Shown here in pieces: positions 31,633 through 44,824 of a DNA stretch of 64,000 nucleotides. The notes beneath the pieces are model-generated. The model saw nothing but the letters and a program-made list of their open reading frames with translations. It had not been told where the DNA came from and ran no database searches. Origin of the DNA: Blastopirellula marina DSM 3645. Lineage in GTDB: Bacteria > Planctomycetota > Planctomycetia > Pirellulales > Pirellulaceae. A program made the translations under genes and the position numbers. The stretch spans positions 1,272,405 to 1,336,404 of the forward strand of contig NZ_CH672377.1 in assembly GCF_000153105.1 (NCBI RefSeq). The letters run 5' to 3'. Position 1 is the first letter of the stretch; each line of letters opens with the position of its first letter.

Positions 31633-34600
31633 ATGACTCGAATCGTACCAGTTCCGACTACCCGCGTAAGCGACGGCAACTTGCACTCTCGTTTGCTATC
31701 GCAATTGGCGGCGAGTCAGGCCAATCTGTTCAGCCTGCAAAACCAGCTCAGCACCGGCCGTCGTCTACTGGCGCCCAGCGATGATGCGCCGGCCGCCATT
31801 CGCGGCATCACGTTGCAATCATTGATCGAACGGAAGACGCAGATCAGCGTCAATTTGTCGACTAGCCAGTCATACTTAGCTGCTACCGATACGGCGATGG
31901 CGGGCGCCGCGGATTTGTTAGCCGAAATGCGAGGCTTGGCCGTCACGATGGTCGATTCGACAGCGACCGATACCGAAGTCGCGGCGGCGAGTCAAACGTT
32001 GCAAAACGCTTTGCAGCAATTCGTTGATATTGGAAATCGACAATTCCGCGGTCGCTTTCTGTTCGGCGGCTCCAACACCACGACGACTCCGTTTACCATC
32101 AAAGACGGCCTGGTCCAATACAACGGCAATACGAATAGCCTGAACAGCTTCTCCGATATCGATTTGCTGTTTGATACGACTGTCAACGGTAATGAAGCCT
32201 TCGGCGCGATCTCGCCGGAAGTCAAAAGTCAGATCGACCTGAATCCCGTTCTTACCGAAAATACAAAGCTCTCCAATCTGCGCGGCGGCGCAGGAATCGC
32301 ATCCGGCAGCTTTGTAATTTCCGATGGCGTGAATCCGGTCACGATTGACATTCGCTCCGCCGAAACGATCGGCGACGTCATCAACTTGATTGAGAAAAAT
32401 CCGCCGCCGGGAAGAACCATCACGGCGCGTATCGACAACAACAGTCTGATCGTTGATATTGACGATGCTGGCGGCGGCAACCTGACGATCCGTGAAACCG
32501 GCGGAAGTCGCGTCGCCGCCCAACTAGGGATCTTGAAAACCGACGGCAACGGCGTCCAGCCAATTGAAGGCGCCGACCTGAATCCGATCATTACGGCGAC
32601 AACCAAACTTTCAGACATTTTGGGGACCAAGTCTCAAGCTGTCGTTTCTTACGCCGGCGCCAACAACGACATCGTTCTGAACGCCAAAGATAATGGCGCC
32701 GACGCAAACGGCGTGACGCTGCAATTGGTCAATGATGATCTGCTGCAAGCCAAACCGGGTCTGACCAAAGGGAACGAAGTCGTCACTCTGGCCGAAGACT
32801 TGCAACGTGCGCAGACCACTCTCGACCTGGATGGAGCCGGCAACAGTCTGTTGCTCACCGCTAACTCGACCGACGGCAGTCTCGACGGCGCACGGATTGT
32901 GTTTGATTCGACCGGCGATATCGGCGACACCGCCGTGATCGGTCCGACGACCGTCGTCAACGGCGTAAAGACGATCACCGTCCAAATCGACGATACCGAC
33001 GAAACGTCACTGCAATCGCTGTCGGACGCATTTATCGCCGATGGACGATTCTCGGTCGGATTTGATACGTCGACCGGCGAATCCTTCAACGCGGCGAGCC
33101 CGGTGCTCGCCACCAATAGCGGCAACGCTTATACGACCTACATTCAACAAGAGGGGGTAAAAGCCCGCGCCGCGGTCCCGCTCTCCGGCGGTAACAACGA
33201 CTTGATCTTGACCGCCAACCAAGCGGGCTTTGATTTTAACAACGTCAACATCGTGATCGACGCGTCGGGAGATATCGGCGACACGGCGACGGCGACCTAT
33301 GTAGACGACGGCACGACGCGCACGTTGACGCTCGCCGTCGACGATAGCGATGAGACTTCGCTGCAAACCTTGATGAACGCGATCATCGCGGAAGGCTCTT
33401 TCTCGGTTCGACCTGACAGCTCCAACGGCAATACGTTCAACCCTAACTCGTTCGTTTCGGCGACCGACGATGGTCCGATCGGCGACACCGGTAATAGCGG
33501 CGGCGACTCGAAGACGATTTTCGCCCGCGTCGACGCCGATCGCACCAACGCCAACCAGCTTGTTTCGGCGCTCAATAACAACGCCAAATTTAGCGAACTG
33601 TATACCGCCGAGATTGACGAACACGATACCGTTTCAGATTTTCAACGTGGATCGGGGATTGTCGATCTCTCGGTCATCGCCGAGTTCCAAGGAGGCAGCG
33701 GCGCAAATTTTGACGCGTCGTCTGGGCTGCAGATCATCAACGGCGGCGATATGCAGGTTTTAAAGTTTGACGACGCGAAGACGGTCGAGGATCTGCTGAA
33801 CGTATTCAACGGCGCCGGTTTGGGCGTGCTGGCCGAAATCAACACCGCCGGCAACGGAATCAACGTTCGTTCGGTCGTGAGCGGCGGTGATTTCACCATC
33901 GGTGAGAACGGCGGCACGACGGCGTCCCAGTTGGGATTGCGTACGTTCAATGAATCCACTCCGCTTACATCGCTCAACTACGGCCTGGGCGTTCAGACGA
34001 CCGAAGGGACCGATTTCACGATCACTCGCAATGACGGGAAACAGTTGGAGATTGATTTATCGAGCGCAAAAACTGTGGGCGACGTACTCAATCTGATCAA
34101 TAACCATCCCGAGAACCAGGATGGCAGTCCAGTCGTCGCGCGACTCTCCGACTTTGGCAATGGAATCGAATTGGTCGACGACAACCCGGCCGGCGTTGGC
34201 CGTTTGACGCTGGAGCGAGACATTCTGAGTTCGGCGATCATCGATCTGGGATTGATGCCGGCAGGACAAACCGTCGCGACCGTTTCCGATTCGCCGACTG
34301 CGACAGCGGCGACCGCGACGGTCGAATTTTCTCCGCCCACGAACGAAAACAACGCGATTCAGATCAGCGCCAACTTGCCCGGCACGACGTTCAACAACGT
34401 CCAGATCGAATTCGTTAACTCGGCCGCGGCCGGCGATCAGGCGATCGTGAACTATGACCCGAATACGAAAAAGTTAACGATCGACGTTGATCCGGCGGCG
34501 ACCACCGCGAATACGGTCATCGCGGCGATCAATGCCGAAGGGACTTTCTCGGCAGATACAGCGATGGAGAGCGATCCAACCAACAACGGCGAAGGCTTGA

Positions 34601-35364
34601 TCGTTCAAACCGGCGTGATCGCTTCGACCAACGGCGGAACCCCAATCGCTGACGCCGAACCGGCCGCGGCCTCGGTCAGCTTTGCGATGCCGGAAGATTT
34701 GAACACCGCGTTCACGCTGGAGTCGCTCTATCCGGGCACCGCTCATAATGACGTCCGGATCGTCTTTAACGATACGCTGGCTTCAGGCTCACCGACCGCT
34801 GTTTACAACTCGGGGTCAAAAACGCTGACCCTGTCGATCGACGCCGGCGTCACAACGACGGAGGAAATCATCAATGCGATCAATCTCGAAGGGACATTCC
34901 ACTCGCAACTTGATCGCAGCGTCGATATCACGAACGACGGCACAGGCGTCGTTTCGGCGACAGGGACGGTCGGTACGACATCGGGCGGCACGGCCGAAGT
35001 CATGACCGGCAAGGACGCCAACCCGCGGGAGACCAAGAGCGTTTTCAATACGCTGATCAAATTGAACGAAGCGATCGTTACCCGCGACTACGTGCAGATC
35101 AGTCGTCTGGTTGATTCCCTGGACACCGATCTCTCGAGACTTAGTTTTTCGCGGGGCGAGCTTGGCGCTCGCTCGCAGAACGTCGATCTGATGAAAACTC
35201 GGCTCGAAGACGACATGGTCGAGTTGAACGCCAACTTATCGACCGAGATCGAGGTCGACTTCGTCAAAGCGGCCTCTGATTTCGCCGCACAACAAGCTTC
35301 GTACCAGGCGTCGTTGCAAACGATCGGGCAGATTTACCAATTGTCGCTGCTCGACTATATCTAA
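31633..35364 (+). CDS. flgL: Giant flagellar hook-associated protein 3 (FlgL)
   Basis: FlgL joins FlgK to the filament. Residues 1-150 carry the flagellin-like D0/D1 half (NLFSLQNQLSTGRRLLAPSDDAP) and about 1130-1243 the matching C-terminal half (LSFSRGELGARSQNVDLMK). The protein is 1243 aa, about four times the usual 300. The interior holds a flagellin-IN segment near 214-255 (LRGGAGIASGSFVISDG) and another near 785-825, plus at least four copies of a module also seen in the flagellin and FliD genes: about 400-495, 511-612, 894-1002 and 1012-1119. A diverged partial copy is near 336-372. The ends could equally suggest flagellin, but the neighbour flgK and the N-terminal motif favour FlgL. 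Confidence 0.87.
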   Translation: MTRIVPVPTTRVSDGNLHSRLLSQLAASQANLFSLQNQLSTGRRLLAPSDDAPAAIRGITLQSLIERKTQISVNLSTSQSYLAATDTAMAGAADLLAEMRGLAVTMVDSTATDTEVAAASQTLQNALQQFVDIGNRQFRGRFLFGGSNTTTTPFTIKDGLVQYNGNTNSLNSFSDIDLLFDTTVNGNEAFGAISPEVKSQIDLNPVLTENTKLSNLRGGAGIASGSFVISDGVNPVTIDIRSAETIGDVINLIEKNPPPGRTITARIDNNSLIVDIDDAGGGNLTIRETGGSRVAAQLGILKTDGNGVQPIEGADLNPIITATTKLSDILGTKSQAVVSYAGANNDIVLNAKDNGADANGVTLQLVNDDLLQAKPGLTKGNEVVTLAEDLQRAQTTLDLDGAGNSLLLTANSTDGSLDGARIVFDSTGDIGDTAVIGPTTVVNGVKTITVQIDDTDETSLQSLSDAFIADGRFSVGFDTSTGESFNAASPVLATNSGNAYTTYIQQEGVKARAAVPLSGGNNDLILTANQAGFDFNNVNIVIDASGDIGDTATATYVDDGTTRTLTLAVDDSDETSLQTLMNAIIAEGSFSVRPDSSNGNTFNPNSFVSATDDGPIGDTGNSGGDSKTIFARVDADRTNANQLVSALNNNAKFSELYTAEIDEHDTVSDFQRGSGIVDLSVIAEFQGGSGANFDASSGLQIINGGDMQVLKFDDAKTVEDLLNVFNGAGLGVLAEINTAGNGINVRSVVSGGDFTIGENGGTTASQLGLRTFNESTPLTSLNYGLGVQTTEGTDFTITRNDGKQLEIDLSSAKTVGDVLNLINNHPENQDGSPVVARLSDFGNGIELVDDNPAGVGRLTLERDILSSAIIDLGLMPAGQTVATVSDSPTATAATATVEFSPPTNENNAIQISANLPGTTFNNVQIEFVNSAAAGDQAIVNYDPNTKKLTIDVDPAATTANTVIAAINAEGTFSADTAMESDPTNNGEGLIVQTGVIASTNGGTPIADAEPAAASVSFAMPEDLNTAFTLESLYPGTAHNDVRIVFNDTLASGSPTAVYNSGSKTLTLSIDAGVTTTEEIINAINLEGTFHSQLDRSVDITNDGTGVVSATGTVGTTSGGTAEVMTGKDANPRETKSVFNTLIKLNEAIVTRDYVQISRLVDSLDTDLSRLSFSRGELGARSQNVDLMKTRLEDDMVELNANLSTEIEVDFVKAASDFAAQQASYQASLQTIGQIYQLSLLDYI
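32830..33468 (+). repeat. FlgL modules 1 and 2 (tandem)
   Basis: Two copies of the shared module at residues about 400-495 and 511-612. Both contain LTAN followed by GDIGDTA, a strand such as KTITVQI or RTLTLAV, then D-(T/S)-DETSLQ and a (G/S)-(R/S)-FSV end. They are closer to each other than to other copies, suggesting a local duplication. Confidence 0.7.
34312..34989 (+). repeat. FlgL modules 3 and 4 (tandem)
   Basis: Residues about 894-1002 and 1012-1119. The pattern is F(T)NNVQIEFVN or HNDVRIVFND, then YDPNTKKLTIDV or YNSGSKTLTLSI, then TT-x-x-x-(V/I)IAAIN or IINAIN-like, then EGTF, and a closing GG. Confidence 0.7.
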
Positions 35365-35443
35365 TCTGAAATGCGTAAGAAGTCATCGCGCCGAACGTTC
35401 TGAGACGGATGTTCGGATTTTATGGATTCGTCCTGGCTCGCTC

Positions 35444-35451
35444 GCCGATAA
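35444..35451 (+). promoter_or_regulatory. Sigma-28-like -10 motif before fliW
   Basis: GCCGATAA is an exact match to the FliA (sigma-28) -10 consensus and lies 76 bases before the fliW start. No convincing TAAA -35 is found at 15-16 bases upstream, so this is a partial match only. Confidence 0.3.
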
Positions 35452-35526
35452 ACCAGAATGTCAGTAATTAGATCGCTACTAGGGCGATCATGCCAGCACA
35501 GCATCACTGTTCGAGATGTTTCGACC

Positions 35527-35967
35527 ATGGATATCTATACGGCTCGCTTCGGAAAGCTCGAAATCGTGGATGAAGACGTCATCCTGTTCGCAGACGGTTT
35601 GATCGGCTTCGAGAGCCTGGTTAACTGGATCCTGCTTTCCGATGAGCAATCGGAAGACCTTGGTTGGTTGCAATCACTGGAGCAGCCCGAAGTGGCGCTG
35701 GCCGTCGTCAGTCCGCGACGATATGCCCCCGACTATCGAGTTCGTCTCGAGAAAGAAGAAGTCTCGCCGATTCGGTTGACGGCCGACGACGAGGTGTTCG
35801 TGCTTACGATCGTCAGCAAGCATGAAGATTCGCTGACCGTCAATCTTCGCGCACCGGTCGTGATCAATCTGACCAAGCAACTTGGCCGACAAATTGTGAC
35901 GTCTGACGACCAGCCGCTGCAGTTCGAAATCCAAGGCGGCGCTTCTTATTACCGCAAAAGCGCCTAG
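35527..35967 (+). CDS. fliW: Flagellar assembly factor FliW
   Basis: FliW binds flagellin and also binds CsrA, relieving its repression, so that flagellin synthesis follows export. The 146-aa product begins MDIYTARFGKLEIVDEDVILF and contains GLIGFESL, the LGWLQSLEQPEVALAVVSP block and NLRAPVVIN, all typical. The ATG at 35527 is chosen by homology; the frame is open upstream to 35458 but matches nothing. It precedes csrA by 249 bases in the usual fliW-csrA order. Confidence 0.92.
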   Translation: MDIYTARFGKLEIVDEDVILFADGLIGFESLVNWILLSDEQSEDLGWLQSLEQPEVALAVVSPRRYAPDYRVRLEKEEVSPIRLTADDEVFVLTIVSKHEDSLTVNLRAPVVINLTKQLGRQIVTSDDQPLQFEIQGGASYYRKSA

Positions 35968-36216
35968 TTCGGTCGAATCTGCAGGCGATAGTTGGTCGGT
36001 ACATTCGATTCCGCCGACAGAAGTCGACCATTGCGGCGGATATTGATTGGGCGTCAGTCAAAGTCCGATAGATGCTACTGCGGCCGGCGCCGCGACAGCG
36101 ATGCTATCCCACGCTTGGGCCGCTAGCTGACTACCGCTTAAAAACAAATACGCCCTACCGTTCTCCGGCGTCGCCGTTAAACGGATTAGAACAGCGCACC
36201 GAGGAAGGAGCCTGAT

Positions 36217-36438
36217 ATGCTCGTCTTGTCGAGGCATCGTGACGAAAGCATCATGATCGGCGATAACATCGTCATCACAATCGTCGATATTCGCGGCGAC
36301 AAAGTCCGTCTTGGCATCGCCGCCCCCCAGGATATTCCCGTACATCGCCAAGAGGTGTACGAAGCGATTCAACGCGAAAACCAACAAGCGTCTCGTTTAC
36401 AGCCGAACGAAGCCGCCGCACTCCGTAAGACGAAGTAG
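36217..36438 (+). CDS. csrA: Carbon storage regulator CsrA
   Basis: CsrA is a small RNA-binding dimer that blocks translation at GGA motifs. The 73-aa product, [20 protein letters not shown], has the conserved N-terminus and [22 protein letters not shown] with the RNA-binding arginine in VHR. A GGAAGGAG Shine-Dalgarno lies close to the ATG. It sits between fliW and flagellin, so the flagellin mRNA is the likely main target. The C-terminal tail (about 55-73) is longer and polar. Confidence 0.95.
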
Positions 36439-36504
36439 TTTGGCGCGGTTACTGCGCGTCCAACCATTCCTCACTTTCGTCCTACCCGTCGTAATCCGCT
36501 CAAT

Positions 36505-36529
36505 GGCGCCAGGCCCGGCGCCTTTCTTT
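36505..36529 (+). terminator. Terminator after csrA
   Basis: GGCGCC (36505-36510), loop AGGCCC, GGCGCC (36517-36522), then TTTCTTT. Short but GC-rich, followed by a T-rich tract. Confidence 0.55.
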
Positions 36530-36790
36530 GTCGCTGCTGCGACGTCGGATTTATTCTCCAAGCTTCCCAAAACGCGCTGCGGAAACGCGCAACGAAACCG
36601 GGAAAAACGCCCGATTTTGATGCTTTGTAACGATCGTAACGCGAAGGCCTATTAGGTTCACTAAACCCGCAGGGAAAACTTCGCCAATCACCTAAAGCAT
36701 GCAACTAATCATATCCGATAGTCCTCGATAGATGATCGTGCATAGGATCGGTCGAGCGCTGGAGAGTTACACTTTCACCAGAGCGAAATA

Positions 36791-36804
36791 GCAGGTTAAC
36801 CTGC
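36791..36804. promoter_or_regulatory. 14-bp perfect palindrome (operator-like)
   Basis: GCAGGTTAACCTGC is perfectly symmetrical, with no spacer, and lies about 140 bases before the flagellin start. Zero-spacer palindromes suit dimeric repressors better than RNA hairpins, but no regulator is known here. Confidence 0.4.
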
Positions 36805-36928
36805 AGGGGCAGGAAGCCTCCTCAAATGACAAGCAGATAGGTTTGAATAGGGCTGCGTTTGCAGCCGACCGTTCCGATTCGATTGACTCCCCAGGCATCG
36901 GACGGGCTTCAAAGTAGTCCCTGGATTT

Positions 36929-36944
36929 AGGAGGGGTGACTCCC
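36929..36944 (+). promoter_or_regulatory. Flagellin ribosome site in a hairpin with GGA motifs (possible CsrA target)
   Basis: AGGAGG (36929-36934) is an ideal Shine-Dalgarno, 11 bases before the ATG. GGAG (36930-36933) can pair with CTCC (36940-36943) around a six-base loop, or GGG with CCC around TGACT. GGA motifs occur at 36923-36925 and 36930-36932. Overlap of GGA with the ribosome site is how CsrA represses flagellin translation in Bacillus. Confidence 0.5.
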
Positions 36945-36945
36945 A

Positions 36946-39900
36946 ATGACCCGCATCAACACAAACGTTAGTTCTCTTGTCGCTCAGAAGAATTTGGGCC
37001 GCTCGAACGCGGACCTGAACACGACCCTGACGCGTCTCAGCACCGGTCTCCGCATCAACAGCGGTAAAGACGATCCGGCCGGTTTGATCGCCAGCGAAGC
37101 GCTTCGCAGCGATATCACGAGTGTCGAAAAAGCGATCACCAATAGCGAACGCGCCAATCAGTTGATCGCGACGGCCGACAGCGCCCTTGGCCAGGTCAGC
37201 TCGTTGTTGAACGACATTCGCGGATTGATCTCGGAAGCCGCGAATACCGGCGCCCTCAGCGACGAGCAGATCGCGGCGAATCAGCTGCAAATCGACTCGT
37301 CGCTCGAAGCGATCGACCGTATCGCTCAAGTGACCTCGTTCCAGGGCAAACGTCTGCTCGACGGAAACTTGGACTTCATCACGCAAAACGTCAACAGCTC
37401 GGCGATCGAAGGTCTGCGTATCGATCAGGCCAACTTCGGCACGCAAAGCTCGATCGGCGTTAAAGTCAACGTCGTTCAGCAAGCGACCCGTGGTACGCTG
37501 AACTACGGTTTCGGCGCGGTCGCCGACGACTTGGTGCTGGAAATCGGCGGCGCCAACGGTACCGAAGCGTTCAACTTCGCCAAGGGTTCGACGATCGAAG
37601 AAATCGCTTCGGCCGTTAATCTAGTCTCGGACGCTACCGGCGTCGAAGCGCTTCTGGAAACGGCCGCCACCAAGGGCGAACTGACCGTCAGCAGCTTTGG
37701 CACGGACAATGACATCTTGCTGACTGCCAACGAAGCCGGATTCGATCCAGGCGACGTCCGCATCAAGTACAGCAAGGGAACTAGCAGCACGACCACCGCA
37801 AGCTACACCGCTCCGGTTGGCGCCGATCCCGGCAAGCTGGAAGTGACGCTCGGCGTTTCGGACTATGAAGCGGCCTCGTTGGTGGTTGACACCGCCGGCG
37901 AAAACAACGCCTTCACGCTTACCGCCAACGAAGCGGGCGCCGACTACAACGGCACCCAAGTCGTTTTCGCCGACGGCGCCGAACTGGGCGACGAATCGGC
38001 CTCGTACGATGCGTCGACCAAGACGTTGACGATCACCAAGAACGCCGCATCGAACGCCGATGCGATCGTCGCCGCGATCAACAACGCCACGGAACGGACC
38101 GCTGCGTCGTTCACCACCTCCGGCGCCGCGAACGCTTCGCTCACCGTGACGTCGAAGATCTTGGGTGACGAAACGAACAGCGTCGGCATCGAGTATGTCG
38201 ACAACGCCTCACTCACGGGAGGCGCGCTCGTCTCGTTTGACGAAGCCAACAACAAGCTGGTGGTCCAGATCGACACTGGCGTTTCGACCGGTACCGAAGT
38301 TCGCGACGCGATCAACGCTCAAGTCGGCGACCTGTTCTCAGCCGCTTATGCGACGGGTAACGATGGTTCCGGCGCTGCGGCAGTTGGTGATATCGCGGGT
38401 AGTTCAACTTTCGCCGGCGGCACGACGACAGCTCGTTCGCAAGCCTCGGTGTTAGTCGAAGCAGGTAATGCTGACGCTTCGATCCATGTTCGCGCTCTGA
38501 CCGGCGGCACCGAAATCGACGGCGTTCAGCTGATCTATTCGACCTCTGGCGCCGTGGCCAAAGGCGCTGAAACGGCCGCTTATGACGCCGACGCCAATAC
38601 CTTGACGGTTCAGATCAACGTCGCGTCGACCGGCGCCGAAGTCGTCACGGCTATCGACGCTCTGACCGGCCTGTTCGACGCCCGAAACGCTCTCGGAAGC
38701 GATGGTTCTGGCGTTGTTCAAGTGGGCGACACGACCGGCACGACGCTGTTTATCGGCGGCGACCGCCAGAAGACCACCGATCTGTTCACCGCCGCAGTGG
38801 TGGAAACTACGGGTTATGGCGCCGGAGCTGGCATTGTCGCAGCGACCGGATCCTACGGATCGACTGCAACGGGCGGCATTACGGGTGGTGACATTGTCGC
38901 GACGGCGAATGACGTCATCGAGGCGATCAACGCCGCCACCGGCAACAACAAGGTTACCGCTTCGCTGGCCGCCGGTAACGACGGACACGACACGGTCACC
39001 GAGTTCACGAACTACGCCTATAGCGGTGTCGCTGAGCAGAACACCAGTCTGCAGTTCCTGTCGCCGGAAGATTCGCCGAACGTTCGCTTTGTCTCAAACG
39101 TCGGCACCGGCCTGGGCATTGACACGACGACCGATCCGCGCGTCGAAGGCTTGTCACAAGCGATCATTCAAAACGCTGACGCCAACGGCACCTTCTCCAT
39201 CACCGCTAAGCTGAAGGGAACTGACTACGACGGTTATACGATCAGCTTCGTTGACAACAACGATCTGGCCGGCGGCGGTGATGAGTACGCCGTGCTCGAC
39301 AAAAAAGCCAAGACGCTCACCTTGAACATCCAAGACGGCGTTTCGACGGCTGAAGACGCGATCAACGCGATCAACAACGACGCCTACGTCAGCCAGTTCT
39401 TCGAGGCCGAGAACTTCGGTTCCAGCGACGGGACGGACGCGCTCGACATCAGCGAACTAACCATTCCGTCCGGCACGGACGGCGGCCTAGTTAGCGAAGG
39501 CACGCTGATCGTCAACCTCGAAACCGACGCGGACGGAAACGTCAAGACGACGGCGGACGACTTGATCGCCTTCTTCGATGATCCCAGCGCGTTCATTTCG
39601 GATCCCACTGAAGCCGCCAACACGTTGGCGTACCTGCAGGATCGCGGCATCAGCGTCACCAATGTCAGCGGCAGCGACGGCAGCGGCGTCCTGTCTGCCA
39701 CGACCGAGGACATCACCTTCGCGACCAGCGGAACCGAACTGGAAGACGCCCAGGCGTCAGGTACGACCTATTCGGTGAACGGCGTCAATGCTCAGCTGAG
39801 CTTCACGGCGATCAACTCTGGCGCCGACTACGACAACGTCAAGGTCCAGTTCGTGAACGACGCTACGGTCACCGCAGGTACGGATGAACGCGGCGAATAC

Positions 39901-40839
39901 GATGCGGCCAACAAGACGCTGACCTTCTACATCGAGGAAGGCGTTACGACCGCAGCCGATATCGCGGACATCTTCGATAGTGCGGACGGCAACTATGACG
40001 AAAGCCTATCGTTGCTATTCAGCGCAACCGCCAGCGGCGGCGCCGCCGTCACCACCGACGACACGGCGACGCTGACCGGCGGCGTGATCGACACTGGTTC
40101 GACCGACGGAGCCGCGTTGCTTGGCAACTCGGACCTGGAAAACACCGGTCTGTCATTCCAAGCGACCAGCTTTGGCGCCGAATCGTTCGTCAGCGTGAAA
40201 GCCCTCACCGGCACCTTCAATCTGACCGATCAAAGCGGCAACACCAATGTGGATCGTTCGACGGGTACGGACGTCGATGTTCGCATCAATGGTATCCAAG
40301 CGATCGGCGACGGTTTGAAAGCCTCGATCAATACTTCTTCGCTCGACCTAAGCTTCTCGCTTGGCGAAAACGTCGAAGATGATTCGAGCTTTGAATTTGA
40401 AATCGTTGGCGGCGGCGCCTTGTTCCAACTCGGTCCGGACGTGGTCAGCAACCAGCAAGCTCGACTTGGTATCCAAAGCGTCAGCACCGCCACCCTGGGC
40501 GGCGTCAGCGGGCGTTTGTTCGAGCTTCGCTCGGGCGGTAGCAAGAGCTTGTCCGAGGATGTCGGCGGAGCCGCCAAGGTGGTGGACGAAGTCATCTCGG
40601 TGGTGACCTCGCTTCGCGGTCGATTGGGCGCCTTCCAGAAGACGACCTTGGACTCGAATATCTACTCGTTGAACGATACCTTGGCCAACCTGACCGAAGC
40701 CGAAAGCTCGATCCGCGACGCCGACTTCGCTGCGGAATCGGCCAAACTGACGCGAGCTCAGATTCTCGTTCAGGCCGGCACCAACACGTTGGGTATCGCC
40801 AACCAGAACCCGCAAAACGTGCTCAGCCTGCTCCGATAA
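36946..40839 (+). CDS. fliC: Giant flagellin
   Basis: This is the filament subunit. Residues 1-150 (MTRINTNVSSLVAQKNLGRS, LSTGLRINSGKDDPAGLIAS) and about 1195-1297 (AAESAKLTRAQILVQAGTNT, ending NVLSLLR) are the conserved D0/D1 domains. The interior of about 1000 residues replaces the usual variable D2/D3 part, giving 1297 aa against about 300-500. It contains five clear copies of the shared module (residues about 310-392, 396-493, 509-605, 744-847, 948-1047), a diverged one near 246-306, and a low-complexity Gly/Thr part (about 620-650). There is no signal peptide; export is through the flagellar system. Ser/Thr-rich surfaces could be glycosylated (inference). A strong terminator follows. Confidence 0.95.
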   Translation: MTRINTNVSSLVAQKNLGRSNADLNTTLTRLSTGLRINSGKDDPAGLIASEALRSDITSVEKAITNSERANQLIATADSALGQVSSLLNDIRGLISEAANTGALSDEQIAANQLQIDSSLEAIDRIAQVTSFQGKRLLDGNLDFITQNVNSSAIEGLRIDQANFGTQSSIGVKVNVVQQATRGTLNYGFGAVADDLVLEIGGANGTEAFNFAKGSTIEEIASAVNLVSDATGVEALLETAATKGELTVSSFGTDNDILLTANEAGFDPGDVRIKYSKGTSSTTTASYTAPVGADPGKLEVTLGVSDYEAASLVVDTAGENNAFTLTANEAGADYNGTQVVFADGAELGDESASYDASTKTLTITKNAASNADAIVAAINNATERTAASFTTSGAANASLTVTSKILGDETNSVGIEYVDNASLTGGALVSFDEANNKLVVQIDTGVSTGTEVRDAINAQVGDLFSAAYATGNDGSGAAAVGDIAGSSTFAGGTTTARSQASVLVEAGNADASIHVRALTGGTEIDGVQLIYSTSGAVAKGAETAAYDADANTLTVQINVASTGAEVVTAIDALTGLFDARNALGSDGSGVVQVGDTTGTTLFIGGDRQKTTDLFTAAVVETTGYGAGAGIVAATGSYGSTATGGITGGDIVATANDVIEAINAATGNNKVTASLAAGNDGHDTVTEFTNYAYSGVAEQNTSLQFLSPEDSPNVRFVSNVGTGLGIDTTTDPRVEGLSQAIIQNADANGTFSITAKLKGTDYDGYTISFVDNNDLAGGGDEYAVLDKKAKTLTLNIQDGVSTAEDAINAINNDAYVSQFFEAENFGSSDGTDALDISELTIPSGTDGGLVSEGTLIVNLETDADGNVKTTADDLIAFFDDPSAFISDPTEAANTLAYLQDRGISVTNVSGSDGSGVLSATTEDITFATSGTELEDAQASGTTYSVNGVNAQLSFTAINSGADYDNVKVQFVNDATVTAGTDERGEYDAANKTLTFYIEEGVTTAADIADIFDSADGNYDESLSLLFSATASGGAAVTTDDTATLTGGVIDTGSTDGAALLGNSDLENTGLSFQATSFGAESFVSVKALTGTFNLTDQSGNTNVDRSTGTDVDVRINGIQAIGDGLKASINTSSLDLSFSLGENVEDDSSFEFEIVGGGALFQLGPDVVSNQQARLGIQSVSTATLGGVSGRLFELRSGGSKSLSEDVGGAAKVVDEVISVVTSLRGRLGAFQKTTLDSNIYSLNDTLANLTEAESSIRDADFAAESAKLTRAQILVQAGTNTLGIANQNPQNVLSLLR
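37873..38760 (+). repeat. Flagellin modules 1-3 (tandem)
   Basis: Three consecutive copies of the shared module of about 85-100 residues at 310-392, 396-493 and 509-605. Recurring elements are a strand ending in FTLTAN or SLTVTS, YNGTQVVF or VGIEYVDN, Y-D or FDEANNKL-type strand turns, a T-rich bend, (V/A)-x-x-AI(N/D), and a GSDGSG or GNDGSG turn then closing GG. Confidence 0.7.
39175..39486 (+). repeat. Flagellin module 4
   Basis: Residues about 744-847: TFSITAKLKGTDYDGYTISF, then VDNNDLAGGG, KKAKTLTLNIQDGVSTAEDA, INAINNDAYVSQFFEAE and closing GG. This copy has the clearest consensus in the protein. Confidence 0.75.
39787..40086 (+). repeat. Flagellin module 5
   Basis: Residues about 948-1047: LSFTAINSGADYDNVKVQFV, then YDAANKTLTFYIEEGVTTAA, a diverged D-x-F-D helix, LLFSATASGG and the terminal TGG. 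Confidence 0.72.
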
Positions 40840-40866
40840 CGTTCGGGCTGATTACGCCAAGCTACG

Positions 40867-40900
40867 AAAGCCTCCGCCAACTTTGGCGGAGGCTTTTTTT
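40867..40900 (+). terminator. Terminator after flagellin
   Basis: AAAGCCTCCGCCAA (40867-40880) and TTGGCGGAGGCTTT (40883-40896) form a perfect GC-rich stem, followed by Ts to 40900. It makes the flagellin gene a monocistronic unit. Confidence 0.92.
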
Positions 40901-40958
40901 GTGGCTTGTCGACTCCAACTACCTAATCGGAATAAGCTGGAGATTTTACCGCCGCTTG

Positions 40959-40966
40959 GTCGATAA
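40959..40966 (+). promoter_or_regulatory. Sigma-28-like -10 motif before fliD
   Basis: GTCGATAA, one base from the FliA -10 consensus, lies 76 bases before the fliD ATG and after the flagellin terminator. No good -35 is visible at the usual distance. Confidence 0.25.
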
Positions 40967-41041
40967 AGGATGATGACGCTATCTATACATTGATGTTAAT
41001 GCAGGTCGCGCGGGCCGCCTGAGAAAGCGACGATTCGCCCT

Positions 41042-44000
41042 ATGGCTGGGATTAGCAGCAGCACCGGCTTAATATCCGGCATCAACATTACCGACACGGT
41101 AAAGCAACTGCTTTCTATCGAAGCACGTCCCCGCGACTTGCTGATTTCGCGCACGGCCGTCGTCTCGGACGAGCAAGGGGCGCTCAGCAAGGTCACGGCG
41201 GCGATTCTGAGCCTGCAGTTTTCCGCCAAAGCGCTGGCGAAACCATCGATCTTCAATGCCCGAACCGCGGTAACTAGCAATGCTGCGGCGTTGACGGCGA
41301 CGGTGACCGGGACGCCGCGTATCGGCGTCACGCAATTGACGCCTGTGCGGACAGCGCAATCTCAGCAGTACCTCAGTTCCGGCGTCGCTTCCCTTACCGA
41401 ACCGCTTTCAGCCGGCTCCATCTCCATTAGCTCGAGTCCACGCTTAGACCAGGGAATCGATCTCAATCGATTGAACGGCGGCGAAGGGGTCGCCCCCGGC
41501 AAGATTAAAATCACCGACCGAGCAGGGGACAGCGGTACGATCGATCTGCGTTATGCGACCACGATCGACGATGTGCTAGCTGCGATCAACGCCAATGACG
41601 ACATTGACGTGACGGCGACGATTGAGGGAGACCGGATCAAACTGACCGATAATACGGGTCAAACGACCAGCAACTTGGTCGTCAAAGAGCTGTCAGGCGG
41701 CTCCACCGCCGCCGACCTGGGGCTGCGCGATGTCAACGTCGCCGCCAGCAGCCATCTCGGCAATGACATCGTCTCGCTCCATAGCGAAACGCGGCTAAGT
41801 TCGCTTCGAGATGGCGCCGGGATCCGCTTGAGCAGCGACCTGGACGATTTGACGATCGCTTTTCGAGACGGCACGACAAAAAATATCGGCTTGCGTCAGG
41901 GCGCCAAGCCCGAGGATTTCGCCGCCGCTTCTACGGCGACGTTCGACTCCAAGTTCAGCATTACGGCCAACAACGCCGGCGCTGAATACGAAGGGGTCGC
42001 CGTCATCTTTGAGAACAACGGTTCGGTCACCCAGGGCAACGAATCGGTCGTCTATGACGATCTCGCCAAGACCGTCACCGTGCAGATCGCTGAAGGCAGC
42101 ACGACCGCAGCGGATGTGATCAGCGCGATCAACAACGACGCCAACGCGGGTCTCTACTTCACCGCGGCGACAGTCGACGGCGGATCCGGCAGCGGCTTGA
42201 TTGACACCATCGACACCGCGATCACGTCAGGCGGCGCCGCCTTATCGACGGCCGTAACGACGGCGGCGAACGCCAACGCCAGCATCGAGATCAGCGCCAT
42301 CAACGCCGGTAGCGACTACGACGATGTTCAAATTTTGTTTGTCGACGATCCAGGCGTCACCCAAGGGAGCGAACTCGTCGAATATGACGACAGCGATCCC
42401 TTCAACAAGACCCTGACGGTCCGCATCAAAGCCGGCGAGACCACCGCCGCGGACGTTATCACTGCGATCGAAAACGATCCGCTCGTCAGTCCGCTGTTTT
42501 CGGCCGCCAACGCGTCGGGAAGCGACGGCGCCGGGTTGATTGACGTCACCGACACGGGAACGACCGCCGGGGGCGAACAAAACGCGGTCGGCATTTCGAC
42601 TGCACAAGCGGTTGATGGAGTCGTCAAACTTACAGCCAAGCAATTGGGGGGAGACTACGATAATGTCACCCTCCGTTATGTCAACGATCCTGCCGTGACC
42701 GCCGGAAACGAAGTCATCCAATACGATGATAGCGATCCCGAAAACATCACGCTCACCGTGCGGATTCAGGCTGGCGGAACGACGGCCGATAATGTCATTG
42801 ATGCGATCAACAACAATGCGACAACCTCCGCGCGTTTTACCGCGGCCACCGCAACCGGTGGAAACGGCGATCGAATCGTCGACACCAACAGCACGGCGCT
42901 GACTACGGGCGGCGCATCGCGTGAAGAGCGTTCGCCGCAAACCTTGGGCGACCTGCTCACCATCTTCAATGAAATCGATCCGACGCGGCTGCAAGCCCAG
43001 ATTTCATCTGATGGCGACCGCATTGAGTTGATCGACCTCTCCACCGACAACGGCGGATCCTTTTCGGTCAGCAGTTTCGGCGACGGACACGCGGCTGAAG
43101 ATCTGGGAATCGCCCTCTCCACCACCAGCGACACCATCTCCAGCGGGCGCTATATCGGCGGACTCAATTCCAAATTGATCAGTTCGCTTAACGGCGGCCA
43201 AGGTTTGGACCTGGGAGAGGTCAAAGTGACCGACCGCAGCGGGGCCTCGGCGACGATCGACCTTTCTAGCGCCGAAACAGTCCAAGATATCTTGACGGCT
43301 TTGAACGATTCAGGTCTGGGCATCGAAGCGGAGTACAACTCTTCCGGCAACGGCATCACCATCCGCGACACGACGGGGCAGTTTTTCAGCAACTTCAAAA
43401 TTGAGAATACCGGCGCGACTAATTCGGCGGACCTGCTGAACATCGCCCAATCTTCCGCACAAACCAAGGTCGAGTCAGGTTCGTTGCACTTCCAATACGT
43501 CAGCGAACAGACCGAACTCAGTTCGTTAAACGGCGGCAGCGGCATCCCCAAAGGCAAATTCCTCGTCCGCGACAGCGCTGGCGGCGCTCGTGTTTTTGAC
43601 CTGTCGGATGAAAGCATCCAGACGCTGGGAGATCTCATTGATACGATCAATGGTCAAACCGGCGTCAAAGTGAAAGCGCAGATTAACGACACCGGCGACG
43701 GAATAAAAATCGTCGACCAGGCAGGCGGATCGGGTGAACTCCGCATTCAGGACTCAGGCACGTCGCAAACCGGGACCGCTTTGGGAATCGTTGGAACCGG
43801 GGCCATCGCCGAAGGGGAATCAAAACAGAGCCTGTCAGGCTCGTTCAACAAGGTCGTTCAAATCGAGGCCGGCGATACGATCACCGACGTGATCACAAAA
43901 ATCAACGACCTGGACGCCGGGTTCTCGGCCAACGTGTTCGACTATGGCGCCGGCTCCGAACGTTATCGGATCTCGCTAGTTTCCGACAAAACGGGAAGCG

Positions 44001-44824
44001 GCGGAACTTTTCAAATTGACTCGTTGAATTCAAATTTTGAATTTGACGAAACGGTGCGAGGTCAAGATGCGCTGCTGTTATTCGGATCCAACACCAACGG
44101 ATCGGCTGGAATTCTGACCACTTCTTCGACGAACACGTTTACAGGGGTCGTCGAAGGGGTAAGCGTCACCATCAAAGAGGCGACGAACACGCCGATCAAT
44201 ATTACGATTTCGGACTCGGACAGTTCGCTCGTCACCGCCGCGAATGCGTTCGTCACGCAGTACAACGCTCTGGTGGATCTGATGGACGAATACACGGCCT
44301 TTAACGAAGCGGACAATTCGACCGGCGTTCTGTTCGGCTCGAACGCCGCGAATCGTATCGACTCGGAATTGAACGAGATTCTTACGCGACGCTACCCAGG
44401 TCTCGGCAGTATTCAATCGCTCGAACAACTCGGCTTCGGTTTTAACGGCGAAACCGGCAAAATGGCGCTCGACGAAGTAAAACTCAAAGCGAAGTACGCC
44501 GAGGATCCCGACGCAGTCGAAGATTTCTTCATCAAAGAGCAGACGATCGGCGGAGAGACGAAACAACTCGGTTTCGCGCAGAAGTTTGACGATCTCATGG
44601 AATCGTTTGCAGGCGCCGGCAGCTCGTTGTTGATTAGCCGGATCGAAGCGCTCCAATCCAAAATCGATCTCAATCAGTCTCGGATCGACACCTGGAATGA
44701 GAAGCTGGAAAAACGACAGGAAGTTTTGCTGAACAAGTTCTATGATTTGGAGACGACTCTGGCCGGCATCCAATCGAACCTGTCTTACCTGGATGCGATT
44801 CAGCCGGTTACGTTTCCCGATTAG
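41042..44824 (+). CDS. fliD: Giant flagellar filament cap FliD (HAP2)
   Basis: FliD caps the growing filament and helps flagellin fold. The N-terminus SSSTGLISGINITDTVKQLL and C-terminus (coiled, ELNEILTRRYPGLGSIQSLE, then LDLNQSR-type helix and ETTLAGIQSNLSYLD) are typical. The protein is 1260 aa, against about 450-700. Flagellin-IN motifs lie near 144-185, 716-758 and 829-874. Three tandem copies of the shared module occupy about 297-398, 407-511 and 519-624. Copies 2 and 3 share the phrases YDDSDP and LTVRI, suggesting recent duplication. Its position between flagellin and fliS is the usual one. No strong Shine-Dalgarno is seen. Confidence 0.93.
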   Translation: MAGISSSTGLISGINITDTVKQLLSIEARPRDLLISRTAVVSDEQGALSKVTAAILSLQFSAKALAKPSIFNARTAVTSNAAALTATVTGTPRIGVTQLTPVRTAQSQQYLSSGVASLTEPLSAGSISISSSPRLDQGIDLNRLNGGEGVAPGKIKITDRAGDSGTIDLRYATTIDDVLAAINANDDIDVTATIEGDRIKLTDNTGQTTSNLVVKELSGGSTAADLGLRDVNVAASSHLGNDIVSLHSETRLSSLRDGAGIRLSSDLDDLTIAFRDGTTKNIGLRQGAKPEDFAAASTATFDSKFSITANNAGAEYEGVAVIFENNGSVTQGNESVVYDDLAKTVTVQIAEGSTTAADVISAINNDANAGLYFTAATVDGGSGSGLIDTIDTAITSGGAALSTAVTTAANANASIEISAINAGSDYDDVQILFVDDPGVTQGSELVEYDDSDPFNKTLTVRIKAGETTAADVITAIENDPLVSPLFSAANASGSDGAGLIDVTDTGTTAGGEQNAVGISTAQAVDGVVKLTAKQLGGDYDNVTLRYVNDPAVTAGNEVIQYDDSDPENITLTVRIQAGGTTADNVIDAINNNATTSARFTAATATGGNGDRIVDTNSTALTTGGASREERSPQTLGDLLTIFNEIDPTRLQAQISSDGDRIELIDLSTDNGGSFSVSSFGDGHAAEDLGIALSTTSDTISSGRYIGGLNSKLISSLNGGQGLDLGEVKVTDRSGASATIDLSSAETVQDILTALNDSGLGIEAEYNSSGNGITIRDTTGQFFSNFKIENTGATNSADLLNIAQSSAQTKVESGSLHFQYVSEQTELSSLNGGSGIPKGKFLVRDSAGGARVFDLSDESIQTLGDLIDTINGQTGVKVKAQINDTGDGIKIVDQAGGSGELRIQDSGTSQTGTALGIVGTGAIAEGESKQSLSGSFNKVVQIEAGDTITDVITKINDLDAGFSANVFDYGAGSERYRISLVSDKTGSGGTFQIDSLNSNFEFDETVRGQDALLLFGSNTNGSAGILTTSSTNTFTGVVEGVSVTIKEATNTPINITISDSDSSLVTAANAFVTQYNALVDLMDEYTAFNEADNSTGVLFGSNAANRIDSELNEILTRRYPGLGSIQSLEQLGFGFNGETGKMALDEVKLKAKYAEDPDAVEDFFIKEQTIGGETKQLGFAQKFDDLMESFAGAGSSLLISRIEALQSKIDLNQSRIDTWNEKLEKRQEVLLNKFYDLETTLAGIQSNLSYLDAIQPVTFPD
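41930..42913 (+). repeat. FliD modules 1-3 (tandem)
   Basis: Three tandem copies with a period of about 108-112 residues. Each has a strand FSITAN, IEISAI or VKLTAK, an NAG or LGG turn before a Y-(D/E)-x-V segment, a G(S/N)ESV or GNEVI strand, Y-D-D, (K/N)-x-(V/L)TVQI or LTVRI, TTAADVI-x-AI(N/E), a (F/Y)(T/S)AA end and closing GG. Confidence 0.8.

Follow-up and report, generated by a model that had tools for sequence, protein, structure and literature searches.

Introduction

Giant flagellins, which exceed 1000 amino acids (aa) and carry repeats in their outer region, were described by Thomson et al. (2018; PMC6248924). In the available part of that paper, Blastopirellula marina is named as a giant-flagellin species in a figure legend, stepwise duplication is proposed for the outer repeats, thick filaments are shown in two gamma-proteobacteria, and two questions are left open, namely whether further components of the flagellum are enlarged to match and how outer domains arranged in tandem fold. 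In this work, we analyzed a stretch of 64,000 nucleotides from B. marina DSM 3645 (contig NZ_CH672377.1, positions 1,272,405 to 1,336,404; hereafter the window, in whose own numbering coordinates are given), and found that its hook-filament junction protein FlgL, its flagellin (FliC), and its cap protein FliD share one homologous module of about 100 residues. The window flagellin resembles the described giants in its length and its outer repeats. However, their repeat is the DE region of gamma-proteobacterial flagellins, and in the available text FlgL appears only as a family filtered out and FliD is not mentioned, whereas here FlgL and FliD are also enlarged, and with copies of this one module, a finding relevant to both open questions.

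Two other systems come close. In a model of the beta-sandwich D2 domains of FlgL and FlgK (PMC6155364), like outer domains of neighbouring axial proteins were proposed to touch like-to-like, but as far as the available part of the paper goes, that model concerns one domain each in the FlgL-FlgK pair, whereas we deal with many copies in FlgL, flagellin, and FliD and found none in FlgK. In Campylobacter, the extra D4 domain of FliD and the bulky D2 domain of FlgL lie adjacent at the tip, but the accessible text does not claim that the extra domains of different proteins are homologous (PMC12221982). We found no report of a module shared by FlgL, flagellin, and FliD in the open-licence PubMed Central literature. 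The module is real and previously unnamed, although giant repeat-bearing filament proteins themselves were already known. Our best overall explanation, to which we give a probability of about 0.6, is that the module entered the three axial proteins long ago, multiplied in place, and forms their outer domains.

One module in three axial proteins

The evidence for a common module comes from profile hidden Markov models (HMMs) built from the copies of a single gene and applied to the other two. When trained on the three FliD copies, an HMM matched, in the first round, the flagellin copies with a best independent E-value of 8.8e-22 and the FlgL copies with 2.2e-13, both calculated for a database of one. 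The FliC-only model found the three FliD copies at 63.7-89.8 bits and FlgL at 6.6-43.2 bits, the FliD-only model found six FliC places at 8.2-61.7 bits and FlgL at 9.6-32.8 bits, and the FlgL-only model reached 25.0-33.2 bits on FliD and 12.0-37.7 bits on FliC; the best scores of shuffled controls (400 sequences per model) were 7.6, 9.8, and 7.2 bits. The C-terminal third of the module connects FliC and FliD at 20.2 bits, and no link of this third to FlgL was found (2.1 bits against 6.3 in shuffles). An earlier note on this DNA, made from the letters alone, had proposed one homologous module in these three genes, with four copies in FlgL, five in flagellin, and three in FliD, and our profile map recovered that count at essentially equal coordinates. 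On a model of length 98, the map counts 11 copies as full, one as truncated, and four as halves; they are scored below with a model of 133 copies, and all features lie on the plus strand.

FlgL (31633..35364, 1243 aa) belongs to TIGR02550 with 194.8 bits against a curated cut-off of 127.2; PF00669 scores 49.1 bits in it, and PF00700 scores 22.9, marginally below the cut-off of 23.0. Its interrupted base module begins with an N part (residues 336-394, 32638..32814; profile match 343-371, 14.3 bits) and ends with a C part (residues 613-690, 33469..33702; match 625-688, model 41-98, 22.2 bits), both of which align with the intact module of the FlgL of genome G678. Between them stand inserted copy 1 (residues about 401-497, 32833..33120, 56.6 bits) and inserted copy 2 (about 519-613, 33187..33468, 76.6 bits), and two more modules follow at residues about 904-1002 (34342..34638, 99.6 bits) and 1022-1119 (34696..34989, 90.4 bits).

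The giant flagellin (36946..40839, 1297 aa) has both the N-terminal (PF00669, 102.7 bits) and the C-terminal flagellin domain (PF00700, 70.5 bits). An N half-copy (residues 254-301, 37705..37848, model 2-46, 11.3 bits), seen again near residues 254-311 in many relatives, is followed by a truncated module (320-391, 37903..38118, model 2-75 of 98, 51.9 bits), two full ones at residues about 395-492 (38128..38421, 65.9 bits) and 508-605 (38467..38760, 62.2 bits), a C half-copy (651-687, 38896..39006, model 53-90, 11.4 bits), and two further modules at residues about 745-846 (39178..39477, 92.4 bits) and 946-1046 (39781..40083, 75.9 bits). FliD (41042..44824, 1260 aa), identified by FliD_N (PF02465, 44.5 bits) and FliD_C (PF07195, 128.5 bits), carries module 1 at residues about 300-398 (41939..42235, 96.7 bits), module 2 at 410-511 (42269..42574, 103.0 bits), and module 3 at 523-624 (42608..42913, 89.0 bits).

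The module adopts a beta-rich alpha/beta fold with one helix, and module 2 of FliD was modelled by AlphaFold2 with a predicted local distance difference test score (pLDDT) of 87.0; the model of a two-module tandem was too poor to reveal the packing of the modules, and its input alignment was out of register in several rows. No Pfam, NCBIfam, or PHROG family scored above its curated cut-off on the module.

Probable growth by nested insertion

FliD carries a series of Flagellin_IN-type (IN-type) repeats, and in 18 of 19 aligned FliD genes the modules split the second of these between its N part and its helix-bearing C part. In the window, the N-side flank (residues 231-282, 41732..41887) is identical at 20 of 52 positions to residues 230-281 of the FliD of genome G019, and the C side (631-690, 42932..43111) at 27 of 60 to its residues 290-348; in G019, the second repeat is contiguous and holds no insert. 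One module is inserted in 11 of the 18 genes, two in four, and three in three; since the additional loci were chosen for matching the module, per-gene copy counts describe a non-random sample. The alignments leave little doubt that the modules interrupt the FliD repeat. In one relative (G061, L092 7669-10831), FliD is read in two overlapping frames, the first of which holds a module, with the break directly after it; this may be real or an assembly error.

For FlgL, we built a model of the intact first module from 10 genes spanning genera and compared it with 19 further genes. Three of these have the module intact, one runs off a contig end, and in 15 an N part and a C part enclose full modules, one in 11 cases and two in four. 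The window FlgL aligns with the intact FlgL of G678 on both sides of its insert, and an interruption of the FlgL module by modules of its own kind is very probable. In flagellin, too, N and C halves flank full modules, and they break at comparable positions of the model; because these halves score only 6-17 bits each, we hold a corresponding interruption of its base module only loosely, as somewhat more probable than its absence. Gain rather than loss is most likely the direction of change, since other genomes have the interrupted frame as one complete domain, which makes gain the simpler course.

Distribution in the genome and among relatives

Three profiles searched against all six frames of the own genome gave 19, 12, and 18 matches at E<=0.01, all within FlgL, FliD, the window flagellin, or a second flagellin on contig 2, and none in FlgK (567 aa). 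This second giant flagellin (G000:C2:3041726-3044530, L095; 1190 aa, also above 1000 aa) has 4-5 module copies and lies away from the flagellar locus; a flagellin-like open reading frame (ORF) of 290 residues was also seen at C2:88421-88816.

Among other genomes, where any match was counted, flagellar or not, the profile of the 11 copies matched 98 of 149 genomes of the family, presumed to be Pirellulaceae, and at least 13 of 392 phylum genomes at E<=0.001 (up to 12 candidates per genome scored in the latter), and a 64-copy profile matched at least 84 of 297 class genomes (up to 17 candidates per genome scored). From the class genomes, 82 were sorted by hand into an order that we presume to be Pirellulales, and at least 64 of these match the module. 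Flagellin_N is present in 60 of the 82: module and Flagellin_N occur together in 59, Flagellin_N alone in one (G728), the module alone in five (G031, G038, G042, G126, and G712; best E 1.2e-10), and neither in 17. G728 is the sole genome of the 60 with no module match, and G746 and G748 are Flagellin_N negative. Strong matches (best E<1e-12) were found in 48 of the 60 genomes with the flagellin N-domain and in none of the 22 without it. Of the 215 class genomes outside the presumed order, at least 20 have a match, always a weak one (best E 4.1e-9), and it falls in a giant frame or in a flagellin that scores about 19-22 bits. Not every match is flagellar: those listed for G036, G040, and G111 all lie in frames of more than 5,000 residues.

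Relatives outside the flagellum

Several planctomycetes also carry the module in very long ORFs, which range from about 2,000 to 18,800 residues. When 11 copies from giant ORFs were made into a profile, it aligned with the 64-copy flagellar profile end to end over 96 columns (P 1.2e-15); as its members had been found by similarity, this value confirms the extent of the likeness more than it constitutes an independent discovery. On these alignments, the module almost certainly belongs to a wider family that includes the modules of giant ORFs, taken here as frames of about 4,000-18,800 residues. In one frame of 6,861 residues (G701; L224 12241-18000 and L225 1-14754), the module reaches 89 bits under the model of 133 copies, stands beside GEVED, Calx-beta, SdrD_B, S8 peptidase, FG-GAP, and nidogen-like domains, and is closest to FlgL copies among the flagellar ones (up to 54% identical). 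Other module-bearing giant ORFs have matrixin, PPC, or laminin-G-like domains, and one stretch of 1,040 residues has no Pfam match. Frames of 8,800 to 18,780 residues in G068:C78, G068:C183, G101:C481, and G534:C65 gave weak to moderate matches (about 28-41 bits).

The rival explanation that survives best starts from these giant proteins, from which the module would have been borrowed chiefly as an adhesin or ligand-binding domain, making the filament sticky over its full length. The GEVED, Calx-beta, FG-GAP, PPC, matrixin-like, or laminin-G-like company, the 54% identity between a G701 copy and a FlgL copy, and the acidic composition of the module copies (13.9% D+E, 3.2% K+R) are consistent with it. 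However, no match to any ligand-binding family was found, the family is apparently structural in phage sheaths, and a spacer role in the giant proteins is equally likely, so that we consider a mainly adhesive module unlikely and prefer an outer structural domain.

The domain of the phage contractile-tail sheath is probably a distant relative of the module. Profile and structure comparison suggested a likeness to the beta-sandwich Phage_sheath_domII (PF17481) in the position and order of strands and helix, but the module stays below every curated cut-off, and the flagellar proteins were without subtilisin-like or C-terminal sheath domains in the Pfam scan. PF17481 was listed for one of 22 module copies (E 0.059, below its cut-off of 31.4 bits) and for none of 11 giant-ORF copies. 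A sequence search of solved structures gave nothing below E 0.026, 0.07, and 0.061 for queries A1, A5, and A6, with phage sheath chain 8kee at E 0.23 amid unrelated matches, and Foldseek against the PDB gave nothing below E 1.2. By tblastn, the FliD modules matched nothing in phages (E<=10) or plasmids (E<=1), and viral contigs yielded no relative that could be confirmed; with whole FliD as query, five phage records were matched, at no more than 28.0% identity and along the ordinary C-terminal half of the protein. We also observed, in the planctomycete genome G297 (L115 1207-2682), a tail sheath protein of Mu type whose middle domain is weakly like the module (5.6 and 9.7 bits).

Origin and history of the likeness

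Ordinary Flagellin_IN motifs (PF07196) could in principle explain all likeness between the genes, since IN-type repeats sit beside the modules and a strand-plus-helix core of 26 columns can be aligned to the module (P 1.3e-4 and probability 54 in hhalign); PF07196 was also matched by two of 11 giant-ORF copies at E 0.038. A common origin of this core alone with Flagellin_IN is possible. However, the remainder of the module is not shared with Flagellin_IN: PF07196 is unlisted for all 22 module copies at E<=10, its matches fall elsewhere in FliC and FliD, and a model of the part N-terminal to the core still connects FliC to FliD at 33.7-41.0 bits, FliD to FliC at up to 40.2, and FlgL to FliC and FliD at up to 28.6 and 16.7 (no shuffle above 8.1). 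Flagellin_IN as the full explanation is ruled out for the greater part of the module, and as a whole it is very improbable. FlgL and FliD also have IN-type repeat series in common; those of FlgL lie at residues 218-300 (32284..32532) and at 33718-33939 and 33991-34254 in our own IN-type alignment, and a model of three repeats each from FlgL and FliD gave 151 matches in 43 ORFs of relatives.

Copy exchange by recombination between flgL, fliC, and fliD, considered possible in the earlier note, could also keep the copies alike if it were ongoing (concerted evolution). In a tree of 133 copies, gene labels changed only 8 times against 60.1 in shuffles, and copies of the same position clustered across genera, although columns are few and many forks lack resolution; the copies are therefore old and mostly inherited in place. 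Copies from different genes share on average 23-38% of amino acids and only 43-52% of nucleotides, and tree and nucleotide identity together rule out recent exchange as the full explanation, leaving concerted evolution a slim chance at best. Older exchange may have occurred: three flagellin copies from two genomes nest in the FlgL group with an SH-like approximate likelihood ratio (SH-aLRT) of 99, although FlgL as one clade is not rejected by the approximately unbiased (AU) test (p 0.0885). With giant-ORF labels included, the tree (117 of 154 rows, after removal of four near-duplicate sources and two long rows) had 10 label changes against 55.3 in shuffles. These trees suggest that copies may, on a few early occasions, have passed from one gene to another or between a giant ORF and FlgL.

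Independent likeness of low-complexity, Thr/Asp/Gly-rich outer domains, which could be imagined from the 39.7% of N, T, S, and G in the 11 copies, is ruled out by the confident AlphaFold2 model and by shuffling of these proteins, as a whole or locally, which leaves all scores below those observed.

Neighbouring genes

The flagellar locus of the window comprises genes for a rod-binding protein, FlgN, FlgK, FlgL, FliW, flagellin, FliD, and FliS, together with what we take, from the translated sequences, to be a FlgI-like gene and a CsrA-like ORF of 73 residues (36217-36438) between flgL and fliC. FliW (35458-35967) adjoins the latter ORF, also between flgL and fliC. The closest named relative is the metagenome-assembled genome Blastopirellula sp. 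NORP48 (L053), whose best FliD segment is 52% identical.

Discussion

The middle of each axial chain faces outward, and the chain then returns to the core. Comparison of genera suggests an early arrival of the module in this surface-exposed part of FlgL, flagellin, and FliD. Further copies would have arisen in place, either as tandem duplicates or as inserts in the loops of domains already present. The domain that took up the inserts would be an IN-type repeat for FliD and another such module for FlgL, and probably a module for flagellin as well. An outer domain that receives a loop insert would be shut again by its second half, with the new domains placed further out. Since the base domain is completed by its C-terminal half once the insert has been passed, an axial protein could add to its outer layer without losing its out-and-back topology. 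By analogy with other giant flagellins (PMC6248924), such solvent-exposed domains would thicken the filament, and we regard this as the probable role of the module. Junction, shaft, and cap would then present a like outer surface, and could pack quasi-homotypically at the FlgL-flagellin and flagellin-FliD interfaces, an arrangement for which earlier proposals exist (PMC6155364, PMC12221982) but which we think less likely than not.

Some observations qualify these readings. The weakest places (FlgL 343-388 and 521-601; FliC 253-323) fall within the shuffle range in some one-gene models, although FlgL 521-613 reaches its 76.6 bits with the 133-copy model. The earlier note suggested that the module may give the whole filament one continuous outer sheath or adhesive surface, but a strictly continuous layer is opposed by the spread of modules in some genomes and by the protein lengths. 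G006, G068, G097, and G101 have clear modules in FlgL and FliD and weak ones (about 25-27 bits) or none recognised in flagellin, which also makes a strict need for like-to-like packing doubtful; G019 has modules in flagellin and FlgL and none in the FliD seen, and loss of its inserts may still be the cause. No module was found within residues 1 to 562-653 of the FliD of L111, L112, L239, and L241, genes cut by the locus ends. Equal growth of the three filament proteins was not borne out: their lengths gave Spearman coefficients of 0.57 (n=16), 0.43 (n=11), and 0.53 (n=16), but after thinning of near relatives the coefficients were 0.45 (n=13), 0.21 (n=8), and 0.37 (n=13), none significant.

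A bolder form of the explanation, which we think unlikely though somewhat less so than the adhesive one, holds that a phage-type sheath domain was domesticated as a common filament layer, like on like from base to tip, and thickened over evolution by Russian-doll insertion with the out-and-back course of the chain preserved, which would be a general route to giant axial proteins. Returning to the old entry and growth in place that we favour, its interest lies in the spread of the module over three axial proteins, in the insertion series, and in relatives outside the flagellum. Genera with 0, 1, 2, or 3 inserts, including an uninterrupted FliD site and intact FlgL base modules, form a natural series, and nested domain insertion in axial proteins is therefore directly testable. 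The link to giant surface-type ORFs, together with the probable link to the phage sheath, points to a widely shared and so far unnamed module.

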